Source: Bradyrhizobium sp. CCGB01 (GTDB lineage Bacteria > Pseudomonadota > Alphaproteobacteria > Rhizobiales > Xanthobacteraceae). Taken from it: a stretch of DNA of 64,000 bases. Position numbers and translations under genes: made by a program. The stretch lies in the NCBI RefSeq assembly GCF_024199795.1, contig NZ_JANADK010000001.1, positions 1-64,000 on the forward strand. Reading direction: 5' to 3'. This document shows positions 2,850 through 52,381 of this stretch, one piece after another; position 1 is the first letter of the stretch; each line of letters begins with the position of its first letter. The notes under the pieces were generated by a model. That model did not search any database and had not been told where the DNA came from. It was given only the letters and a program-made list of their open reading frames with translations.

Positions 2850-2914
2850 CCCTCTCCCCCTGTGGGAAAGGGCTGCTCCGCAGGAAGATACGCATTCAGT
2901 CGGGTGAGGGGTTA
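2850..2914. repeat. Palindromic repeat, left arm bracketing the DUF559 gene
   Basis: A palindromic unit of the type CCCTCTCCCC-TGTGGGA-AAGGG, then a small hairpin (ctgctccgcag), then GGGTGAGGGGT. Its reverse complement matches the element at 3283-3341, so the two arms face each other across the gene. The GTG start of the gene overlaps the arm's last bases. The same family is seen at 13480-13622, 18967-19163 and, more divergent, 37011-37171. Confidence 0.8.
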
Positions 2915-3280
2915 GTGCCGCAGGAACCGTCCCATCGGTCGGTCCCCAAACATCTCCGCCAGTTTGCGAAGAACATGCGGCACGAACCGACGGACGCGGA
3001 GGCAGCGATGTGGCGTCTGCTCAGGGACCGTCGGCTCTCCACCTACAAGTTTCGTCGGCAAGTCCCATTTAAGAGCTACATTCTCGACTTCGTCTGCTTC
3101 GACGCGCGTCTCGTGATCGAGATCGACGGAAGCCAGCATGCTGAATCCCAACGTGACGCCGCTCGCGAAGCCGCACTTTCCGCAGAAGGTTTCTCTGTCG
3201 CGCGCTACTGGAATAACGACGTGTTGCAACAATCCGCGGCTGTTTTGGAGGACATCCTTGCAAAGCTTGCCGGGCGGTAA
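2915..3280 (+). CDS. DUF559 domain protein, Vsr-like endonuclease fold
   Basis: Small protein of 121 residues from the GTG start (an ATG at 2975 would give 101). The pattern matches DUF559, a family of stand-alone PD-(D/E)xK nuclease-like domains related to very-short-patch repair endonucleases. Candidate catalytic residues are Asp58 in YILDFVCF and Glu69/Asp71 in LVIEIDGSQH, with the basic segment YKFRRQVPF before them. Its biochemical role is unknown. The gene is squeezed between two inward-facing palindromic repeats, with its start at the end of the left arm and only two bases between its stop and the right arm. It also splits the usual dnaN-recF neighbourhood. This looks like an inserted cassette (inference). 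Confidence 0.85.
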   Translation: MPQEPSHRSVPKHLRQFAKNMRHEPTDAEAAMWRLLRDRRLSTYKFRRQVPFKSYILDFVCFDARLVIEIDGSQHAESQRDAAREAALSAEGFSVARYWNNDVLQQSAAVLEDILAKLAGR

Positions 3281-3282
3281 CA

Positions 3283-3341
3283 TACCCCTCACCCGTCGCC
3301 TCACTGCGTGAGGCGCCACCCTCCCCCACAAGGGGGGAGGG
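3283..3341. repeat. Palindromic repeat, right arm bracketing the DUF559 gene
   Basis: ACCCCTCACCCG, then a variable hairpin (gcctcactgcgtgaggc), then CCACCCTCCCCCACA and a G-rich end. It is the inverted partner of 2850-2914 with a different central hairpin. It lies just before recF (ATG at 3370). Confidence 0.8.
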
Positions 3342-3369: not shown

Positions 3370-4506
3370 ATGACCCCCTCCCGCATTCATCGCCTGACGC
3401 TGACGCATTTTCGCAATTACCGGGCGGCGGGGCTCGAGACGGCGGCTGACATGGTGGCGCTGGTCGGGCCGAACGGGGCGGGCAAGACCAATTGCATCGA
3501 GGCGATCTCGTTCCTGTCACCGGGACGCGGCTTGCGGCGCGCGACGCTGGAAGACGTCGCGGACAACCAGGGCGACGGCTCCTGGGCGGTCTCTGCGCAG
3601 GTCGAGGGCGCGCTGGGGCTTGCGACGCTCGGCACCGGCATCGACGCGCCGCGCCCCGACAGTACGGTCAGCCGGCGCTGCCGCATCGACCGCGAGCCGG
3701 TCAATTCGGCGACCAGCTTCGGCGACCACATCCGCATGGTGTGGTTGACGCCGGCGATGGACGGGCTGTTCATGGGCGCCGGCTCCGAACGGCGGCGCTT
3801 CTTCGACCGCCTGGTGCTCGCGATCGACAACGAGCATTCCAGCCGCATCAACGCGCTCGAACGTTCACTGCGCTCGCGCAACCGCCTGCTCGAGACGCGC
3901 AATTACGACGACCATTGGTGTGACGCGATCGAGCGCGAGACCGCCGAGCTTGCTGTCGCGGTCGCGGCGACGCGCGGCCAGACCGCGGCGCGCCTCACCG
4001 GCATGCTGAACGCGCGCGCGCAGGCTTCCGCGTTTCCGTCGGCGCAAATCGCGCTCGACGGCTGGATGGAGAATGCGCTGCTGACCGAAACCGCGACGTC
4101 GGTCGAGGACCGTTATCGCCAGATCCTGCGCGATAACCGCCCGCGCGACGCCATCGCCGGCCGTACCACCGACGGTCCGCATCTCACCGATCTCCAGGTG
4201 ATCTATGCACCGAAGAGCATGCCGGCGCGCGATGCCTCGACCGGCGAGCAGAAGGCGCTGCTGATCGGGCTCGTGCTGGCACATGCGACGCTGGTGGCCG
4301 AGATGACCGGCATCGTGCCGCTGCTGCTGCTCGACGAGGTCGTCGCGCATCTCGATCCGAACCGCCGCGCGGCGCTGTTCGACGAGCTGCGCAAGCTCGG
4401 CGCGCAGGTGTGGCTGACCGGCGCAGACCCGGCCGCCTTCGCCGAGATTGGCGCAGGCGGCGAAGTCTTTGACGTCGAGAGCGGACGAGTCTCCGCCCGT
4501 CGCTAG
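3370..4506 (+). CDS. recF: DNA replication and repair protein RecF
   Basis: SMC-like ATPase that with RecO and RecR loads RecA at single-strand gaps. It has 378 residues, the usual size. Walker A GPNGAGKT is at residues 33-40, a conserved STGEQKALLIGLVL signature lies near 290, and Walker B LLLLDEVVAHLD near 318. The opening RIHRLTLTHFRNY is characteristic of the family. It follows the DUF559 cassette and precedes the lipoprotein gene cluster that separates it from gyrB. Confidence 0.97.
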   Translation: MTPSRIHRLTLTHFRNYRAAGLETAADMVALVGPNGAGKTNCIEAISFLSPGRGLRRATLEDVADNQGDGSWAVSAQVEGALGLATLGTGIDAPRPDSTVSRRCRIDREPVNSATSFGDHIRMVWLTPAMDGLFMGAGSERRRFFDRLVLAIDNEHSSRINALERSLRSRNRLLETRNYDDHWCDAIERETAELAVAVAATRGQTAARLTGMLNARAQASAFPSAQIALDGWMENALLTETATSVEDRYRQILRDNRPRDAIAGRTTDGPHLTDLQVIYAPKSMPARDASTGEQKALLIGLVLAHATLVAEMTGIVPLLLLDEVVAHLDPNRRAALFDELRKLGAQVWLTGADPAAFAEIGAGGEVFDVESGRVSARR

Positions 4507-4592: not shown

Positions 4593-4625
4593 ACGGATGA
4601 CGCGCGATATCCCTGGAGAAGCGAG

Positions 4626-5369
4626 ATGCGGACGGTAAGGACCGGGGCGCGAGTCCCGGCACGATGGCTGGCGTTTGCGTGCGGCCTCTTCCTGCTCGCA
4701 AGCTGCATGCTCGCGGCGAGCGCGAGCGCCTGGGTGCCGCATCTGTCGCCGCTGTTCTCCGGCGCGCTCACGCCGGATCCCGACACCAAGCTGCCCGCGC
4801 CGACCCGTTACAGCTACCGAGGAATTCACACCACTGTCGTGAGCGGCATCGAAGCCCCGCTCCGCACTAGGTTAGAGGCCACCGTGCCCGCCAGGCTCGG
4901 CGACGTGCTCGCCTTCTACCGCACCGAGCTTGGAAAGCTCGGCTGGCAGGAAGAGCCGGATGGCGTGCTGATCACCGCCGATCACGCGCAGCTCACCTTC
5001 GCCTCCCCGCTCGGGCCGGCGGTGCTGGAGCTCGGCCGCAAGGACAGCAGCACCGTGGTCAATCTCGTGCAGAAGAACTCGGATACGGCGACCAAAGCCA
5101 ATGTCATGCCCGAACCGGGGCAGGCGAAAATGGTGTTCAGCAATATCGGCGAGAAGGAAGCTGTGCTCACGATCTCCGAGCGGATCATCAGGCGCCCGGG
5201 CGGCGCCCACGCGGTGGCGCTGGATCTGCCGCCCGGCAAATATCCCTACGAGCTGAGCGTGCCGGGTCGTCCGGCCTACACCAACAGCCTTACCGTAGCC
5301 GCCGGCGATTCCTGGGAGCTCACGGTCGGGCGCGACGGCGAGGCCTGGTCGCCGCTCCAGCTGTATTGA
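4626..5369 (+). CDS. Putative lipoprotein, tandem paralogue 1
   Basis: Unrecognised secreted protein of 247 residues. It begins with a basic stretch shared with its two neighbours (GARVPARW), then a hydrophobic segment ending in lipobox LLASC with Cys27, so it is predicted to be a lipid-anchored envelope protein. The mature part has a short Pro-rich linker, a module containing GDVLAFYRTELGKLGWQE, and a C-terminal beta-rich domain (LPPGKYPYEL, then TVAAGDSWEL). It is collinear with the last third of the next gene and with all of the gene at 7811. The site ctggag lies just before the ATG. Function unknown; location between recF and gyrB is unusual. Confidence 0.75.
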   Translation: MRTVRTGARVPARWLAFACGLFLLASCMLAASASAWVPHLSPLFSGALTPDPDTKLPAPTRYSYRGIHTTVVSGIEAPLRTRLEATVPARLGDVLAFYRTELGKLGWQEEPDGVLITADHAQLTFASPLGPAVLELGRKDSSTVVNLVQKNSDTATKANVMPEPGQAKMVFSNIGEKEAVLTISERIIRRPGGAHAVALDLPPGKYPYELSVPGRPAYTNSLTVAAGDSWELTVGRDGEAWSPLQLY

Positions 5370-5442
5370 ACCTCGCAGGTTCCTGCCGCGACTTCTGGTT
5401 TGAGGCCGCGCCGACGGTGTCGCAGCCTGCAAATGCGCGCGA
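5368..5442 (+). repeat. Leader repeat 2 before lipoprotein paralogue 2
   Basis: Second copy of the 75-base block (GAACC, GGTT, CGCGACT, TGAGG, TGTCGCAGCC, GCGCGC), beginning at the stop codon of paralogue 1. Spacing of the conserved words matches copies 1 and 3. Confidence 0.7.
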
Positions 5443-5477
5443 CCCCCGACGGAGCGCGAAATCCAGGAGTTTTGACG

Positions 5478-7676
5478 ATGTCGATGATCCCGCGCGGGAC
5501 GCAAGTCCCGGCCCGCTGGCGGCTGCTTGCATGTGGCCTCGTCCTGATCGCGAGCTGCTCGATCGCGGCGGCCGCTGACGGCGGCGGCGTCGACGTCCAC
5601 GCGCTGCCGAAGCTGGAGGGCGCGGTGGAAGACAGCTCGCGCCCCGAATCCTGGCGCCTCGAATATCGCATGCCGACGCCGGAGGCCGTGACGGCGCCGG
5701 CCGTGAAGAAGCTCCTCAGCGCCGACGGCTGGGTGCCCTATCTGCGGCCGCTGGAGGAAAAGAACACCACGCTGAACTTCAAGAAGGGACGACAGGGCCT
5801 TTCGGTCTATCTCACACAGGGTCTCGGCCGTCCCGACCAGTCCATGGTGCATTATTCGAGCGACCGGATCTATTCGAACGTGCCGTTCCCTGACGGCGCG
5901 AGCGACATCATGTTCGATGGCACGAGGCCCTATCTCGGCTGCATTGCGCCCAGCGCGCTTGAGGCGACGTCGGATTTCTTTGGCCGCGAGATGGCTGCGA
6001 TCGGCTGGCAGAAGCTCACGCCGGAAACCGCCGCGCGCTGGACGACCAGCCTGGACGAGACCGTTCCCAATGGTTTTCGCGCGTTCTACGCCCATCCGGA
6101 CAACGAGGCGACCGGCTTCTACCGGCAGAAGCCGATCATGCTGACGCTGACGCGCCGCGACGACGGCCGCACCAATGTCGACATCCGCGTCGCGCCCTTC
6201 GCCCTGCCCGGCGATCTCAAGGCCGACAGCGATCTCGCCGGCCTGCCGCGGCCGAATCCGACCAAGACGGCGAGGGGCCTCGGCAGTGCTGACTCCAACA
6301 AGCGCGAGATGTCGGCCGCCGCGATGGCCGAGCTGCCGGCGGTGCTGGCCTTCTATCATCGCGAGCTCGCCGCGCGCGGCTGGCAGGAGGACGGCAGCGC
6401 GCCGCTCGCACCCGGCGATGAGGTGGCGATCAAGGTGTCCACGGCCGAGGAAACCGGCGTGCTGCGGCTCGGCCGCAAATATGATTTCACCATGATCAGC
6501 CTGAACGTGCAGGTGAAGGAGTCCGCGCTTGCCGCCCGCGCCAGGGCGAAAAAGGAAGCCGATGAGAAGTTCCTCGGCGATGCATTAGGCGCGGCCAAGC
6601 AACTCATCGCCGCCGACGAAGCGCGACGCAAGGTGCAGGCGGCCGCGCTGTCCGACGCGCCGCTCAATGCGCTCGCCGACAGCAAGACGCCGGTGCCGCT
6701 GCCCGAAACCGCCGAGGGCGTGAAGTTCGAAGGCAGCGACGGCCGGCTCGAATTTTCCTCGACCTCGAGCGTGAAGGCGCTCGGCACCTTCTATCGCGCA
6801 TCGCTGAAGAATCTTGGCTGGAAGGAACAGCCTTCCGTCATCAACCAACCCAACATGGCGGTGATGGCGTTCTCCAAGGCCGGTAAGTCGATCTCGATGA
6901 CCGTGATGCAGATGGGTCCGAAGGTGAATGTCAGCGCCAACGGCACCGGCCTGATCGTGGCCGCGGCAAAGCCGGCCGAGACGAAATCGGCAGAAGCCAG
7001 GCCGACAGAAGCCAAGGCGACAGAATCCAAGCCGGTGCAGGCGAAATCGACCGAGCCGCTCAAGCCCGATCCCGACTCCGCCCTGCCCGTGCCGACGCAG
7101 CGCAGCTCGAGCGGCATCAGCTCGACGAAATTCCCCGGCAGCGACCAGTCGTTCCGCAAGGAGCTCGAAGCCAGCATCCCCGCCGAGCTCTCCGACGTGC
7201 TCGCCTTCTATCGCGCCGAGCTGACCAAGCGCGGCTGGCAGGAAAAGGCTGACGGCGCGACCGTCACCGCCGAGCGGGCGGAGCTGGCGTTCACCTCGCC
7301 GGAGGGACCGGCCGTGCTGAAGCTCGGCCGTGCCAGGGACGAGACCACGGTCAGCCTGGTGCAGCGGAATCCACAAGCAGCGGCAAAAGCCGACATCATA
7401 CCGAAAGCCGGACAAGCGAGGGTCATGCTCGGCAATATCGGGCCCAAGGAAGCGTCGCTGACGATCAACCATCAGACCGTCAAGATCGCCGCCGGCGCCG
7501 GCGGCCCGCAATCGCCGAAAGGGCCGATGCTCGACCTGCCGCCCGGCAAGTACCAATACGCGCTGCGCATGCCCGGCCAGCCCGCCCGCACCGACACCCT
7601 CACCGTTGCCGCCGGCGATGCCTGGGGCCTGCTAGTGGGTCCGACCGGCGAGGTGCTGCCGCTGCAAATGTATTGA
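5478..7676 (+). CDS. Large multi-module putative lipoprotein, tandem paralogue 2
   Basis: Unrecognised envelope protein of 732 residues. The ATG at 5478 is chosen because caggag precedes it and because it gives the same leader as its paralogues: GTQVPARW, hydrophobic run, lipobox LIASC with Cys27. The mature chain holds four divergent copies of an FYR-x-L-x(3-4)-GW module, near residues 165, 291, 437 and 577. An Ala/Lys-rich segment (about 345-400) and a Lys/Glu/Pro/Thr linker (about 500-535) separate the modules. The last 200 residues are homologous to paralogues 1 and 3, ending in LPPGKYQYAL and TVAAGDAWGL. The linkers suggest reach across the periplasm (inference). Confidence 0.75.
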   Translation: MSMIPRGTQVPARWRLLACGLVLIASCSIAAAADGGGVDVHALPKLEGAVEDSSRPESWRLEYRMPTPEAVTAPAVKKLLSADGWVPYLRPLEEKNTTLNFKKGRQGLSVYLTQGLGRPDQSMVHYSSDRIYSNVPFPDGASDIMFDGTRPYLGCIAPSALEATSDFFGREMAAIGWQKLTPETAARWTTSLDETVPNGFRAFYAHPDNEATGFYRQKPIMLTLTRRDDGRTNVDIRVAPFALPGDLKADSDLAGLPRPNPTKTARGLGSADSNKREMSAAAMAELPAVLAFYHRELAARGWQEDGSAPLAPGDEVAIKVSTAEETGVLRLGRKYDFTMISLNVQVKESALAARARAKKEADEKFLGDALGAAKQLIAADEARRKVQAAALSDAPLNALADSKTPVPLPETAEGVKFEGSDGRLEFSSTSSVKALGTFYRASLKNLGWKEQPSVINQPNMAVMAFSKAGKSISMTVMQMGPKVNVSANGTGLIVAAAKPAETKSAEARPTEAKATESKPVQAKSTEPLKPDPDSALPVPTQRSSSGISSTKFPGSDQSFRKELEASIPAELSDVLAFYRAELTKRGWQEKADGATVTAERAELAFTSPEGPAVLKLGRARDETTVSLVQRNPQAAAKADIIPKAGQARVMLGNIGPKEASLTINHQTVKIAAGAGGPQSPKGPMLDLPPGKYQYALRMPGQPARTDTLTVAAGDAWGLLVGPTGEVLPLQMY

Positions 7677-7704
7677 TCCCGCCTGGGCCTGTAACGGCCA
7701 GGTC

Positions 7705-7777
7705 GAACCCATCAGGTTCACGGGGCGACTAGTCCTCTGGAGGCGGCGACAGTGTCGCAGCCGCTGCATCGCGCGAC
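7705..7777 (+). repeat. Leader repeat 3 before lipoprotein paralogue 3
   Basis: Third copy of the leader block (GAACCC, GGTT, GGCGACTAG, GGAGG, TGTCGCAGCC, GCATCGCGC). It is closest to copy 1. Confidence 0.7.
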
Positions 7778-7810
7778 AATCAAGGCGCGCAACATCCCCG
7801 GAGAGTGGGC

Positions 7811-8509
7811 ATGACGACGGTAAGGCGCGGGACGAAAGTCCCGGCACGATGGCGGCTGTTGGTGTGCGGCCTCACTCTTCTTGCGAGCTGCTCGCAGGAG
7901 CCGCTGACCGCAGCAGATCCCCACGCCGACATGCCCGTGCCGAAGCGATCCGGCCACACAGGAAGCTTCACCAGCAAGTCCGTGAACGGCATCGAAGCCC
8001 CACTCCGACTCGAGCTCAAAGCCACCGTGCGGGCGGACCTCAGCGACGTGCTCGCCTTCTACCGCGTGGAGCTCGGAAAGCGCGGCTGGCAGGAAATGCC
8101 TGAAGGCGCGGTGGTGGACGCCGAGCACGCTCAGCTCGCTTTCGCCTCCCCGAAGGGGCCGGCCACCCTGAAGCTTGGCCGCGCGAAGGACGAGACCACC
8201 ATCAACCTTGTGCAGCGGAATACGGACGCCGCGGCCAAGGCCGATGTCCTGCCGAAGCCCGGACAGGCGCGGCTGATCTTCGGCTTTCTTGCGCCGGACG
8301 TCGCCTCGCTCGTGATCAACGACCAAACCATCAAGATCGCGGGTGGCGTCAATCACCCACAAATGCTGGATCTGCCGCCCGGTACATATTCGTACGGGCT
8401 GCTGCTGTCGGGCCATCGGGTGCGCTCTGACACCATTACCGTGGCCGCAGGCGAGACCTGGTCCCTCAGGTTGGATAACGACGATAAGAAGTCGGACCAG
8501 ATCTACTGA
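7811..8509 (+). CDS. Putative lipoprotein, tandem paralogue 3
   Basis: Unrecognised envelope protein of 232 residues, same layout as paralogue 1. The leader GTKVPARW is followed by a hydrophobic segment and lipobox LLASC with Cys27, a short linker, one SDVLAFYRVELGKRGWQE module and a C-terminal domain with LPPGTYSYGL and TVAAGETWSL. The ATG at 7811 is preferred over a GTG at 7805 because ccggaga lies at proper distance and the leader then aligns residue for residue with its paralogues. gyrB follows after 282 bases. Confidence 0.75.
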   Translation: MTTVRRGTKVPARWRLLVCGLTLLASCSQEPLTAADPHADMPVPKRSGHTGSFTSKSVNGIEAPLRLELKATVRADLSDVLAFYRVELGKRGWQEMPEGAVVDAEHAQLAFASPKGPATLKLGRAKDETTINLVQRNTDAAAKADVLPKPGQARLIFGFLAPDVASLVINDQTIKIAGGVNHPQMLDLPPGTYSYGLLLSGHRVRSDTITVAAGETWSLRLDNDDKKSDQIY

Positions 8510-13479: not shown

Positions 13480-13622
13480 TCCTTCTCCCCCTGTGGGAGA
13501 AGGTGGCGCGAAGCGCCGGATGAGGGGTTCTCTCCGCTTGCAAGATTGCTTGTGAGGATAGAGACCCCTCACCCGTCTCGCCGCTACCGCGGCGATCCAC
13601 CCTCTCCCACAAGGGGAGAGGG
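13480..13622. repeat. Inward-facing palindromic repeat pair with short spacer
   Basis: Left arm 13480-13528 (CTTCTCCCCCTGTGGGAGAAGG, hairpin ggcgcgaagcgcc, GATGAGGGGT) and inverted right arm 13565-13622 (CCCCTCACCCG, hairpin, CCACCCTCTCCCACAAGGGG). They enclose a 36-base spacer starting tctctccgc and ending atagaga. Same family as the arms around the DUF559 gene at 2850-3341. Confidence 0.8.
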
Positions 13623-13654: not shown

Positions 13655-13725
13655 ATCGTAGGGTGGGCAAAGCGAAGCGTGCCCACCGCTTCTGTAGCAG
13701 TGTGCGCCTTTGCCCACCCTACGAT
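13655..13725. repeat. Inverted repeat with TAGGGTGGGC ends
   Basis: atcgtagggtgggcaaagc (13655-13673) is mirrored by gcctttgcccaccctacgat (13706-13725), about 18 bp with slight imperfection. The outer word is shared with the element at 37880-38020. With the preceding pair it fills the 342-base gap before the MATE gene. Confidence 0.7.
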
Positions 13726-18966: not shown

Positions 18967-19163
18967 ACCCTCTCCGCTTGTGGGAGAGGGTGGCTTCGCG
19001 ACAGCGAAGCCGGGTGAGGGGTCTCTCTCCGCGAGTCCAACTCACATTTGAATGCACGGACAGAGACCCCTCATCCGGCGCCATAGCCGAAGCTTCGCTT
19101 CGGCGTTCTAAAGAACGGCGGCCGAAGGCCGCTTATGCCACCTTCTCCCACAAGAGGAGAAGG
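18967..19163. repeat. Inward-facing palindromic repeat pair with extended right arm
   Basis: Left arm 18967-19021 (CCCTCTCCGCTTGTGGGAGAGGG, hairpin ggcttcgcgacagcgaagcc, GGGTGAGGGGT), spacer 19022-19065 (tctctccgc ... gacagaga), and right arm 19066-19163. The right arm contains two extra hairpins (gccgaagcttcgcttcggc and ggcggccgaaggccgc). Same family as 13480-13622. Confidence 0.8.
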
Positions 19164-21819: not shown

Positions 21820-21910
21820 CGGGCGATGCGGTCGGGCACGGTTGAAATCAGCCGAACATCGTTTGTTGCGCTCATTTTTTCAAGGACCATCCGCGTGCCA
21901 CATATACTCT

Positions 21911-22037
21911 GTCATCGCCCGGCCGGTGCGCAATTGCGCACCAGGACCGTGCGATCCAGTACTCCGAGACGGAAGTGATTGAACCGAGGCGCCGCGGCGT
22001 ACTGGATTCCCCGCTTTCGCGGGGAATGACAGCGGAG
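21911..22037. repeat. 127-base dispersed repeat with GCGCAATTGCGC palindrome, copy 1
   Basis: Begins gtcatcgcccgg, contains the perfect 16-base palindrome GTGCGCAATTGCGCAC at 21926-21941, and ends with ttccccgctttcgcggggaatgac. It is the reverse complement of the copy at 32430-32556. It occupies much of the gap between the AraC gene and pirin. Confidence 0.75.
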
Positions 22038-32429: not shown

Positions 32430-32556
32430 GTCATTCCCCGCGAAGGCGGGGAATCCAGTACGCCGCGGCTCCTCCGTATTCCACAGCTGCCTCTGGAATA
32501 CTGGGTCGCCCGGTCCTAGTGCGCAATTGCGCACTGGCCGGGCGACGACAGCGGAG
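32430..32556. repeat. 127-base dispersed repeat with GCGCAATTGCGC palindrome, copy 2
   Basis: Starts gtcattccccgcgaaggcgg and contains the perfect 18-base palindrome AGTGCGCAATTGCGCACT at 32518-32535. It is inverted relative to 21911-22037, with the same inner words (ATCCAGTACGCCGCGGC). It lies between convergent genes. Confidence 0.75.
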
Positions 32557-37879: not shown

Positions 37880-38020
37880 GTAGGGTGGGTTAGACGAGCA
37901 GATGCGCGAAGCGCGTCTGCTTGACGTAACCCACCACTGCTCTATCCGCGTGGACATTAAAGAGGTGGATTACGCCAAGGGACTGCGCTTCGCGCAGCCC
38001 GGGGCTAATCCACCCTACGA
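37880..38020. repeat. Composite inverted repeat with TAGGGTGG ends
   Basis: tagggtgggtta (37880-37891) pairs with taacccacca (37927-37936). A second half, gtggattacg...taatccaccctacga, ends at 38020. Central hairpins gatgcgcgaagcgcgtc and ctgcgcttcgcgcag are present. Outer words match 13655-13725. It lies between the Nfu and chemotaxis genes, whose stops face each other. Confidence 0.7.
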
Positions 38021-38023
38021 GAT

Positions 38024-39709
38024 CTACGCAGCCTGACCGATGCTGGCCGCCTCTTCCGCCGCCTTGCGCATGCTCGCCGACATCTCGTTCGTCACCGTGC
38101 TCTGCTCCTCGACCGCAGCGGCCGTTGACGAGACGTACTCGCTGACACCCTGGATCGCGCCCTTGATCTGCTCCAGCGCGGCGACGACATCGACCGAGAT
38201 GCCGTTGAGATTGCTGATCTCCTGCTCGATCCGGTCGGCGGCCTGCTTGGCCTGATTGGCCAGATTCTTCACCTCCGATGCGACCACCGCAAAACCGCGA
38301 CCGGCTTCGCCGGCGCGCGCGGATTCAATGGTGGCGTTCAGCGCCAGCAGATTGATCTGGCCGGTGATGTTGCCGATGAGCTGCACGATCATGCTCATCG
38401 ACTCCGCCGCCTGGGTCAGCCGGTGCGCCTGCTGGTCCGCCACCTCGACACGATCGACGGCGGTCGCGGCGGTCTCGCGCGAGCGCGTCATGGCTTCGGC
38501 GATCTCGCGCACCGAAGCGTTGAGCTCCTCGGCGCCGGCGGCGACCGACTCCATCATGCTGCGCACCTTCTCGCTGCGCTTGCGCGCGATCACCTGCGCC
38601 GTGGTGTCGGAGGCGTATTTCACGACCTTGAACGGCTTGCCGTTGAGATCGCGGATCGGATTGTAGGAGGCCTGGATAAAGACTTGCCGGCTGCCCTTGC
38701 CGACGCGCTGATATTCGCCGGACTGGAATTCGCCGGCATTCAGCCTCGCCCAGAAGGCGCGATAGGCTTCGCCGTCGCGCTCGTCAGCGCCCACGAACAT
38801 GCTGTGATGCTTGCCGACGATCTCGGACAGCGTGTAGCCGAGCGCGCCGAGGAAGTTCTCGTTGGCCGTCAGCACCTTTCCGTCCATGTCGAACTCGATC
38901 ACGGCCTGCGACTTGCCGATGGCCTCGATCTGCCCGGCAAAGTTCGCGTTCGACAGCTTTTGCGCGCTGATGTCGGTGGCAAACTTCACCACCTTGAACG
39001 GCTTGCCGGTCTCGTCGAGGATCGGATTGTAGGACGCAAGGATCCAGACTTCCTTGCCGCCCTTGCCGATGCGCTTGTACTCGGCCGACTGGAATTCGCC
39101 GCGGGCCAGCTTTGCCCAGAACTCGCGATAGGCCGCGCTGTCGCGCTCACCAGGCGTAACGAACATTCGGTGATGCTGACCCTGGATCTCGTCGAGCCGG
39201 TAACCGACAGTCGCCAGGAAATTCTCGTTGGCGGTGATGATGGTGCCGTCGAGATTGAACTCGATCACGGCCTGGGCGCGGCCGATCGCGGAGATCTTGC
39301 CGGCATCCTCGAGGCTGCGGATCTTGCGCGCGGTGATGTCGGTGGCGAACTTGACGACCTTCACCGGCTTGCCGGCCTCGTCGATGATCGGATTGTAGGA
39401 CGCCTGGATCCAGATCTCGCGGCCGCCCTTGCCGAGCCGCTTGTACTCGGCGGACTGATATTCGCCGCAGCCAAGGCGCGCCCAGAACTCGCGATAGGCC
39501 GCGCTGCCCCGCTCGTCCGGCGTCACGAACATGCTGTGGTGCTTGCCCTGGATCTCGTCGAGCCGGTAGCCCATCGCGGCCAGAAAGTTCTGGTTGGCGG
39601 TGAGAATGGTGCCGTCGAGATTGAATTCGATCACGGCCTGCGACTTCGAAAGTGCGCTGACCTGGGCCATAGCTTCGCGGGCCGAAGAACCGCTTCGCCA
39701 AAAAGACAT
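38024..39709 (-). CDS. Soluble methyl-accepting chemotaxis protein with three PAS domains
   Basis: Chemoreceptor of 561 residues without membrane segments. Three similar PAS domains lie at about residues 20-130, 142-255 and 265-378, each with a VIEF...NFL...GY core and a C-terminal YNPI...KVVK(F/Y)A(T/S)D. The signalling domain (about 400-560) holds the hairpin [20 protein letters not shown] near 470. No periplasmic domain and no HAMP, so it should sense an intracellular cue, perhaps redox or a bound cofactor (inference). Downstream che genes are absent. Start ATG at 39709. Confidence 0.93.

Positions 39710-50185: not shown

Positions 50186-52381
<2,196 letters not shown>

Follow-up and report, generated by a model that had tools for sequence, protein, structure and literature searches.

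The window analysed here is a stretch of 64,000 nucleotides from Bradyrhizobium sp. CCGB01 (contig NZ_JANADK010000001.1, positions 1 to 64,000), which starts with a dnaA-like gene of a 9.3-Mb genome. Between dnaN, ending at 2787, and recF, starting at 3370, lies a small gene encoding a 121-residue DUF559 nuclease (2915..3280, plus strand; PF04480, E = 1.8e-38), flanked by two inward-facing palindromic arms. The left arm (2850..2914, plus strand) consists of a hairpin CCCTCTCCCCCTGTGGGAAAGGG (2850-2872), a worn middle and the tail GGGTGAGGGG (2902-2911). The right arm (3283..3341, minus strand) is intact, with hairpin 1 at 3319-3341, hairpin 2 at 3297-3315 and the tail at 3285-3294, and it belongs to a set of homologous arms that show covariation. 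The GTG start at 2915 directly follows the left arm, whose end reads ...GGGTGAGGGGTTA, and two bases separate the TAA stop (3278-3280) from the right arm. An earlier note, made by reading this DNA, had described just such a gene between inverted copies of one repeat, with start and stop within two bases of them; the profile match and the coordinates bear this out. The arms do match in inverted orientation, but only at 70% identity (alignment score 33), the left one being worn and having lost its second hairpin. The labels dnaA, dnaN, recF, ureB and pheT used throughout were assigned by eye from translations and gene order, without hidden Markov models.

Read from the outside to the inside, an intact arm comprises a hairpin (of the CCCTCTCCCC type, with loop GGGAGAGGG), a second hairpin of variable sequence and the G-rich tail, which is similar to the 3' side of the first hairpin. 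This tail occurs 4 times in the window versus 0.09 expected, and scanning for it located two composites, assigned to neither strand, that share the inward-pair layout of the cassette and have no gene: one at 13481..13622 with a 37-nt spacer (13528-13564), the other at 18968..19163 with a 45-nt spacer (19022-19066). The earlier note had counted three such loci with spacers of 36-44 bases; the tail scan gives two, not three. An Rfam scan of the window returned no family at its gathering score. A profile search of the whole genome gave three DUF559 matches. Besides the window cassette, these are a second stand-alone copy downstream of ureB, boxed by a different repeat (score 72), and an unboxed domain (G000:C1:6307594-6307887) at the end of a 398-residue protein (locus L003, 1465-2661), which we take, by eye, to be a SPOUT RNA methyltransferase. 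Close homologues of the window cassette in named genomes are mostly in Bradyrhizobium.

We measured how often DUF559 genes are boxed by taking the best inverted match between the 350-nt flanks of each gene and counting a score of 34 or more as boxed. The 85 loci came from samples of the genome itself, the genus, the class and the phylum, and are the best-scoring matches (about 30 per search) rather than a random draw. Inverted arms reached the threshold in 65 of the 85 loci, versus 0/82 for far-flank and 0/85 for shuffled controls (own genome 1/3, the window cassette scoring 33; genus 26/29; class 22/29; phylum 16/24). In this check, proposed in the earlier note, the sampled DUF559 genes were mostly flanked by inverted repeats, so that the first observation named there as refuting the idea was not made. 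Other small genes, taken as open reading frames, were boxed in 8 of 242 cases: 3/94 in Bradyrhizobium stretches, one of these being a GIY-YIG gene, and 5/148 in the genome G157. On plasmids, where ten loci were scored out of 44 matching records, the threshold was reached in Deinococcus (3/3; scores 71, 98 and 115), Sinorhizobium (2/2; 101 and 208) and one of four cyanobacterial loci (128). Next to a pheT-like gene, many Bradyrhizobium genomes have a second type of DUF559 gene with arm types of its own (18 of loci L007-L029).

The arms differ from one enzyme to the next. In four multi-copy genomes, picked for their many DUF559 copies, the left arm was best matched by its own right arm in 18 of 20 cassettes; the exceptions were the unboxed L284 and L279, for which the similar L277 was the best partner. 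Arm similarity tracks protein similarity across 83 boxed loci (Mantel r = 0.52, p = 0.001), a set that excludes the fusion L003, loci with arm scores below 34 and loci with short flanks, and it does so within genomes as well (rho 0.42, p = 0.007, n = 40 pairs). By association, each DUF559 enzyme is thus shown to be matched to its own palindromic arm. The arms are also dispersed. In 800 kb of G157, selected to exclude known DUF559 genes, 59 sites matched the arms of this genome's eight cassettes versus 5 on a reversed-sequence control, and five of the eight arm families have gene-less copies there. Among arm pairs within 160 nt of each other, 22 of 27 face inward, both arms belonging to the same family in 18 of these 22.

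The arms covary as folded strands, which demonstrates a folding constraint. We used 22 right arms (21 distinct), chosen by eye, with a structure drawn from their own consensus. Over both helices 96.3% of cells are paired, helix 2 shows both-sided changes at 8/8 pairs, and the covariation score is 0.271 versus 0.090 for shuffled arms, with every slid control far lower.

The dnaN-recF interval varies among relatives, so that the second refuting observation of the earlier note, one cassette at this site in all relatives, was not made either. Of the 146 genus genomes we fetched the interval from 110, chiefly ones whose recF scored higher, and found both flanks in 108; L167 and L275 had no dnaN match and were dropped. 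A DUF559 cassette occupies 42 of these intervals, a GIY-YIG cassette 28, gene-less CGTC-type palindromes or remnants 25, GTAG palindromes 9 and other contents 4. The GIY-YIG gene at this site is boxed by TCATTGCCGGGCTTGACCCGGCAATCCATC or close variants, and an A-like arm remnant is kept in 4 of the 66 intervals without DUF559 (L204, L234, L261 and L266). In some intervals of 650-707 nt (L217, L230, L237 and similar), a further A-type composite or arm, with no gene, sits next to the left side of the DUF559 cassette or nested within it. On a dnaN/recF tree based on about 990 bases, and therefore short enough that it may overstate the lack of linkage, the states require 51 changes versus a mean of 55.8 (lowest 49) in 100 shuffles, and DUF559 against the rest requires 29 versus 33.4 (lowest 28). 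Since the states show almost no linkage to the tree, entire intervals, whether holding a DUF559 cassette, a GIY-YIG cassette or gene-less palindromes, have probably been swapped between species by homologous recombination. Of the 80 close homologous loci taken from named records, 58 are situated between dnaN and recF, 3 next to one of these two genes and the other 19 at different places, 11 of the 19 being in records named Mesorhizobium. This distribution implies that the insertion at this site is old, so that a freely jumping unit is not supported.

The small GIY-YIG genes behave in a parallel manner. Inverted arms flank 28 of 30 genus loci from Bradyrhizobium (far control 0/29), 14 of the 30 sitting at dnaN-recF, and 16 of 30 class loci from Alphaproteobacteria (far control 2/29); the loci are L296-L325 and L356-L385, again the best-scoring matches, and the class sample includes the window genome's own gene (L381). 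With a loose motif, a CGTC-type tag was found in 25 genus and 13 class arms among the boxed loci. Di Nocera et al. (2013, PMC3733652) describe CGTC-tagged repetitive extragenic palindromic (REP) elements, in Bradyrhizobium among others, as apparently having no dedicated transposase. By eye, the tag, stem and CCA tail given there agree with those of the repeats boxing GIY-YIG genes at dnaN-recF and elsewhere. These repeats are separate from the family of the window cassette, and, in contrast to that report, most GIY-YIG genes of our samples are boxed. GIY-YIG is therefore a candidate for the dedicated enzyme reported as missing from CGTC REPs. In the window itself, inverted copies of a TGTCATCGCCCGG palindrome composite, 10.4 kb apart (21909-22030 and 32430-32551), resemble the composite around the GIY-YIG genes of L317, L321 and L325, and a 36-nt inverted repeat pair at 50893-50972 (TCGTCGTTCCGGGGCGCGCG...) is similar to a CGTC REP composite. 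Our literature searches, with subscription papers and preprints mostly outside them, found no link between DUF559 and palindromic repeats (in titles, abstract openings and passages of PMC12907096) and none between GIY-YIG and REP repeats; absence from print is not established thereby.

The copy number of each repeat family is coupled to its own enzyme and not to the other. Repeats were counted in the 146 genomes with fixed patterns for A-type and GIY1 arms. The median number of A-type repeats was 34.5 in genomes with DUF559 at dnaN-recF versus 11.5 without (P = 8e-6), whereas GIY1 repeats numbered 2 versus 7 (P = 0.30). Conversely, GIY1 repeats numbered 12.5 with GIY-YIG at this site versus 2 without (P = 1.9e-7), and A-type repeats 14 versus 26 (P = 0.10). 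The two counts are uncorrelated (rho 0.04), and both associations persist after subtraction of the two arms of the cassette itself (P = 5e-5 for DUF559 and A-type, 5e-6 for GIY-YIG and GIY1). Tree-disjoint pairs of genomes gave 19:10 for DUF559 (p = 0.027) and 16:6 for GIY-YIG (p = 0.041), with p = 0.12 and 0.21 in the cross tests. Distinct enzyme genes number one to a few per genome, and repeats number in the tens.

Pfam recognises DUF559 (PF04480) in the window protein, with MTES_1575 just below its cut-off and nothing else. Its AlphaFold2 model has a mean pLDDT of 87, and the top Foldseek matches are NGO0050 (3hrl) and the homing endonuclease I-Bth0305I (3r3p; E = 2.5e-4, TM 0.61/0.74), the latter also matched by profile (E = 0.001); Vsr follows more weakly (1vsr, TM 0.54, E = 0.028; 1cw0, E = 0.0084). 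The predicted structure thus points to a catalytic fold of the I-Bth0305I type. The Vsr-like nuclease proposed in the earlier note agrees with the general fold, but Vsr is not the best structural match. Across 66 sequences, the residues that never vary include E29, D58, D71 and R97, and E69, Q74 and H75 hardly vary. The gene is under purifying selection: 35 of the 42 dnaN-recF alleles pass a crude intactness test, and the medians are 0.084 for dN, 0.98 for dS and 0.087 for dN/dS, calculated on 323 pairs with dS below 1.5, out of the 561 that 34 equal-length alleles allow, and with dS near saturation. Neither Pfam nor the fold matches, which are Vsr-like nucleases, revealed a Y1 (HUH) tyrosine transposase in the protein, and the GTAG tag is absent from the arm of the window cassette, which ends in GGGTGAGGGG. 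With regard to anti-phage defence, PADLOC gave no convincing match (the best, DpdF, with E = 0.0022, covers 51 residues of a 1078-position model). A search of 50,697 phage records gave 2 DUF559 matches at E ≤ 1e-5.

On balance, we favour the view, which we hold to be moderately probable, that the window cassette, gene and both arms together, represents the enzyme-carrying member of a REPIN-like family, in a partnership like that of REPINs and RAYTs but with a Vsr-like nuclease. The enzyme would most likely recognise its own arm as folded DNA and nick or cut it, and this cutting would help arm pairs without a gene to be copied into further intergenic positions. The enzyme gene would stay low-copy while the repeats spread, as PMC3116915 reports for RAYTs and REPINs. 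PMC3116915 and PMC3733652 describe mostly inverted palindrome pairs, an enzyme beside its own repeat type, distinct single-copy enzymes in each genome and long persistence. The inverted-pair layout (in the window composites and in 22/27 pairs of G157) and the enzyme beside its own repeat family are found here as well. The differences are that a RAYT is a Y1/HUH transposase associated with GTAG, whereas here a Vsr-like DUF559 nuclease goes with a G-rich tail, and that each intact arm here has two hairpins and a third, G-rich copy. The cassette is thus not a RAYT-family member, having neither the Y1 transposase nor the GTAG tag, but most likely works like one. The comparison with REP-associated transposases made in the earlier note fits the few enzyme genes, the many dispersed inward pairs and the enzyme-specific arms. 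Miniature inverted-repeat transposable elements are likewise small with inverted ends, but here no known-family transposase and no target-site duplication were found.

Several observations weigh against the partnership that we propose. The evidence consists of sequence associations, and cleavage and movement are predictions. Twenty of the 85 DUF559 loci score below 34, three of them at 33 (L001, L006 and L031), and the genus loci cannot count as independent: 18 of the 29 lie beside a pheT-like gene, 4 at dnaN-recF and 7 elsewhere; as they share sites, the class and phylum loci (38/53 boxed) give the fairer count. The boxing test left unboxed the one Azospirillum plasmid gene, three of four cyanobacterial plasmid genes and E. 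coli ycjD (two loci, score 20), and in the three Deinococcus plasmid cassettes the tail seems, by eye, to point outward. Further pair types, one of five covariation measures, were equalled by 50 of 500 shuffles. The fixed-pattern repeat count can miss diverged copies, and with well-supported branches only, the paired comparisons are not significant (DUF559 5.3:1.1, median p 0.22; GIY-YIG 5.5:0.4, median p 0.07).

A further such point comes from the search for movement, which covered dnaN-recF in the 108 genomes, 114 kb versus 120 kb of two close genomes (the aligned blocks, about 80 kb in all, being mostly 91-98% identical) and contigs of three more. In these stretches, neither a clean empty site nor a target-site duplication was found for the DUF559 repeat type. 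Most gaps displayed between the two close genomes differ wholesale; an A-type composite stands in G122 (249-nt gap) where G088 has 24 bases, and since these are unrelated the junction is unreadable. The single clean-looking insertion (229 nt versus an overlap of 4, with TCAT at both ends) carries another palindrome, of the CGTCATTCCGGGGC type. With an old site (58/80 homologues), exchange of whole intervals and no clean empty site or target duplication, the minimal mobile unit of the earlier note is unsupported as written. We also considered and set aside ycjD, a DUF559 gene between sapF and fabI (L386, L388-L392) found at 80% or more query coverage in 3332 of 5426 E. coli genomes; it is unboxed, and three strains fetched as lacking it carry other genes after sapF, namely an MFS transporter and an outer-membrane efflux gene.

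One alternative is homing, in which the palindrome pair came first as the target, and the nuclease gene invaded it and spread by break repair with the arms as homology. I-Bth0305I is among the best solved folds, GIY-YIG is likewise a homing-endonuclease family according to PMC6083498, and the gene-less composites share the inward layout. Homing should, however, fill many composites with genes, whereas the distinct enzymes number one to a few and the arms without a gene number in the tens, and gene-less A-like arms are rare at dnaN-recF (4/66), where the DUF559 gene is intergenic; we consider homing unlikely. Somewhat less probable still is a role in host repair, with DUF559 as a Vsr-like mismatch-repair nuclease and the palindromes as no more than terminators or ordinary intergenic clutter. 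The fold matches to Vsr and the purifying selection agree with it. The Caulobacter protein VsrA, which has a DUF559 domain too and whose gene is required for the SOS response of cells without the methylase ScmA, has been proposed as a mismatch-repair enzyme (PMC12907096), and this proposal also counts against the partnership. Repair nevertheless leaves unexplained the enzyme-specific arms, the rare boxing of other small genes and the coupling of repeat number to enzyme, and the NCBIfam vsr model scores far under its cut-off (17.4 versus 97.85 bits). DUF559 resembles the I-Bth0305I and, more weakly, the Vsr endonucleases in fold, but neither system is known to have inverted palindromic ends. 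That RAYTs or another enzyme move the repeats while DUF559 hitchhikes is improbable: RAYT-family (PF01797) matches occur in 88 of 146 genomes, with slightly more A repeats (21.5 versus 16.5, p = 0.015), a point in favour of such a passenger and against our reading, but the DUF559 effect persists both with a PF01797 match (39 A repeats with DUF559 versus 15 without; p = 1.9e-4, n = 27 and 34) and without one (26 versus 10; p = 0.048, n = 15 and 32), the arms have no GTAG tag, and enzyme specificity is unexpected of a passenger.

Some further repeats were seen along the way. The window holds GTAG-type REP palindromes (GTAGGGTGGG) at 13658-13722 and 37880-37996, related repeated coding units downstream of recF (4601-8489; families D2, D3 and D5), by eye tandem paralogues, and three 300-nt direct repeats with a 366-nt period (38591-39622), of which two share 72% and 83% identity with the copy taken as reference. 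In other genomes, a gene of 163 residues (MDSTARNIALVPPPDRRQS...), on the minus strand of L326 and the plus strand of L336, might by eye encode an MmcB-like nuclease; inverted repeats (score 67) flank it in at least one of the two.

The function of the widespread DUF559 domain is unknown, and many alphaproteobacterial intergenic regions contain scattered G-rich palindromes and CGTC REPs of no known source. It is about an even call whether DUF559 (Vsr-like) and small GIY-YIG proteins are the dedicated enzymes of palindromic repeat families, the former of a G-rich hairpin class in Proteobacteria (with altered orientation in Deinococcota) and the latter of the CGTC REPs. If so, at least three unrelated nucleases would have adopted REP-type repeats, and the two new ones would compete for the same intergenic sites. 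Pairing a repeat family with a nuclease makes the spread of these repeats directly testable, offers a candidate enzyme for the CGTC REPs and is relevant to the interpretation of DUF559 proteins as repair enzymes.
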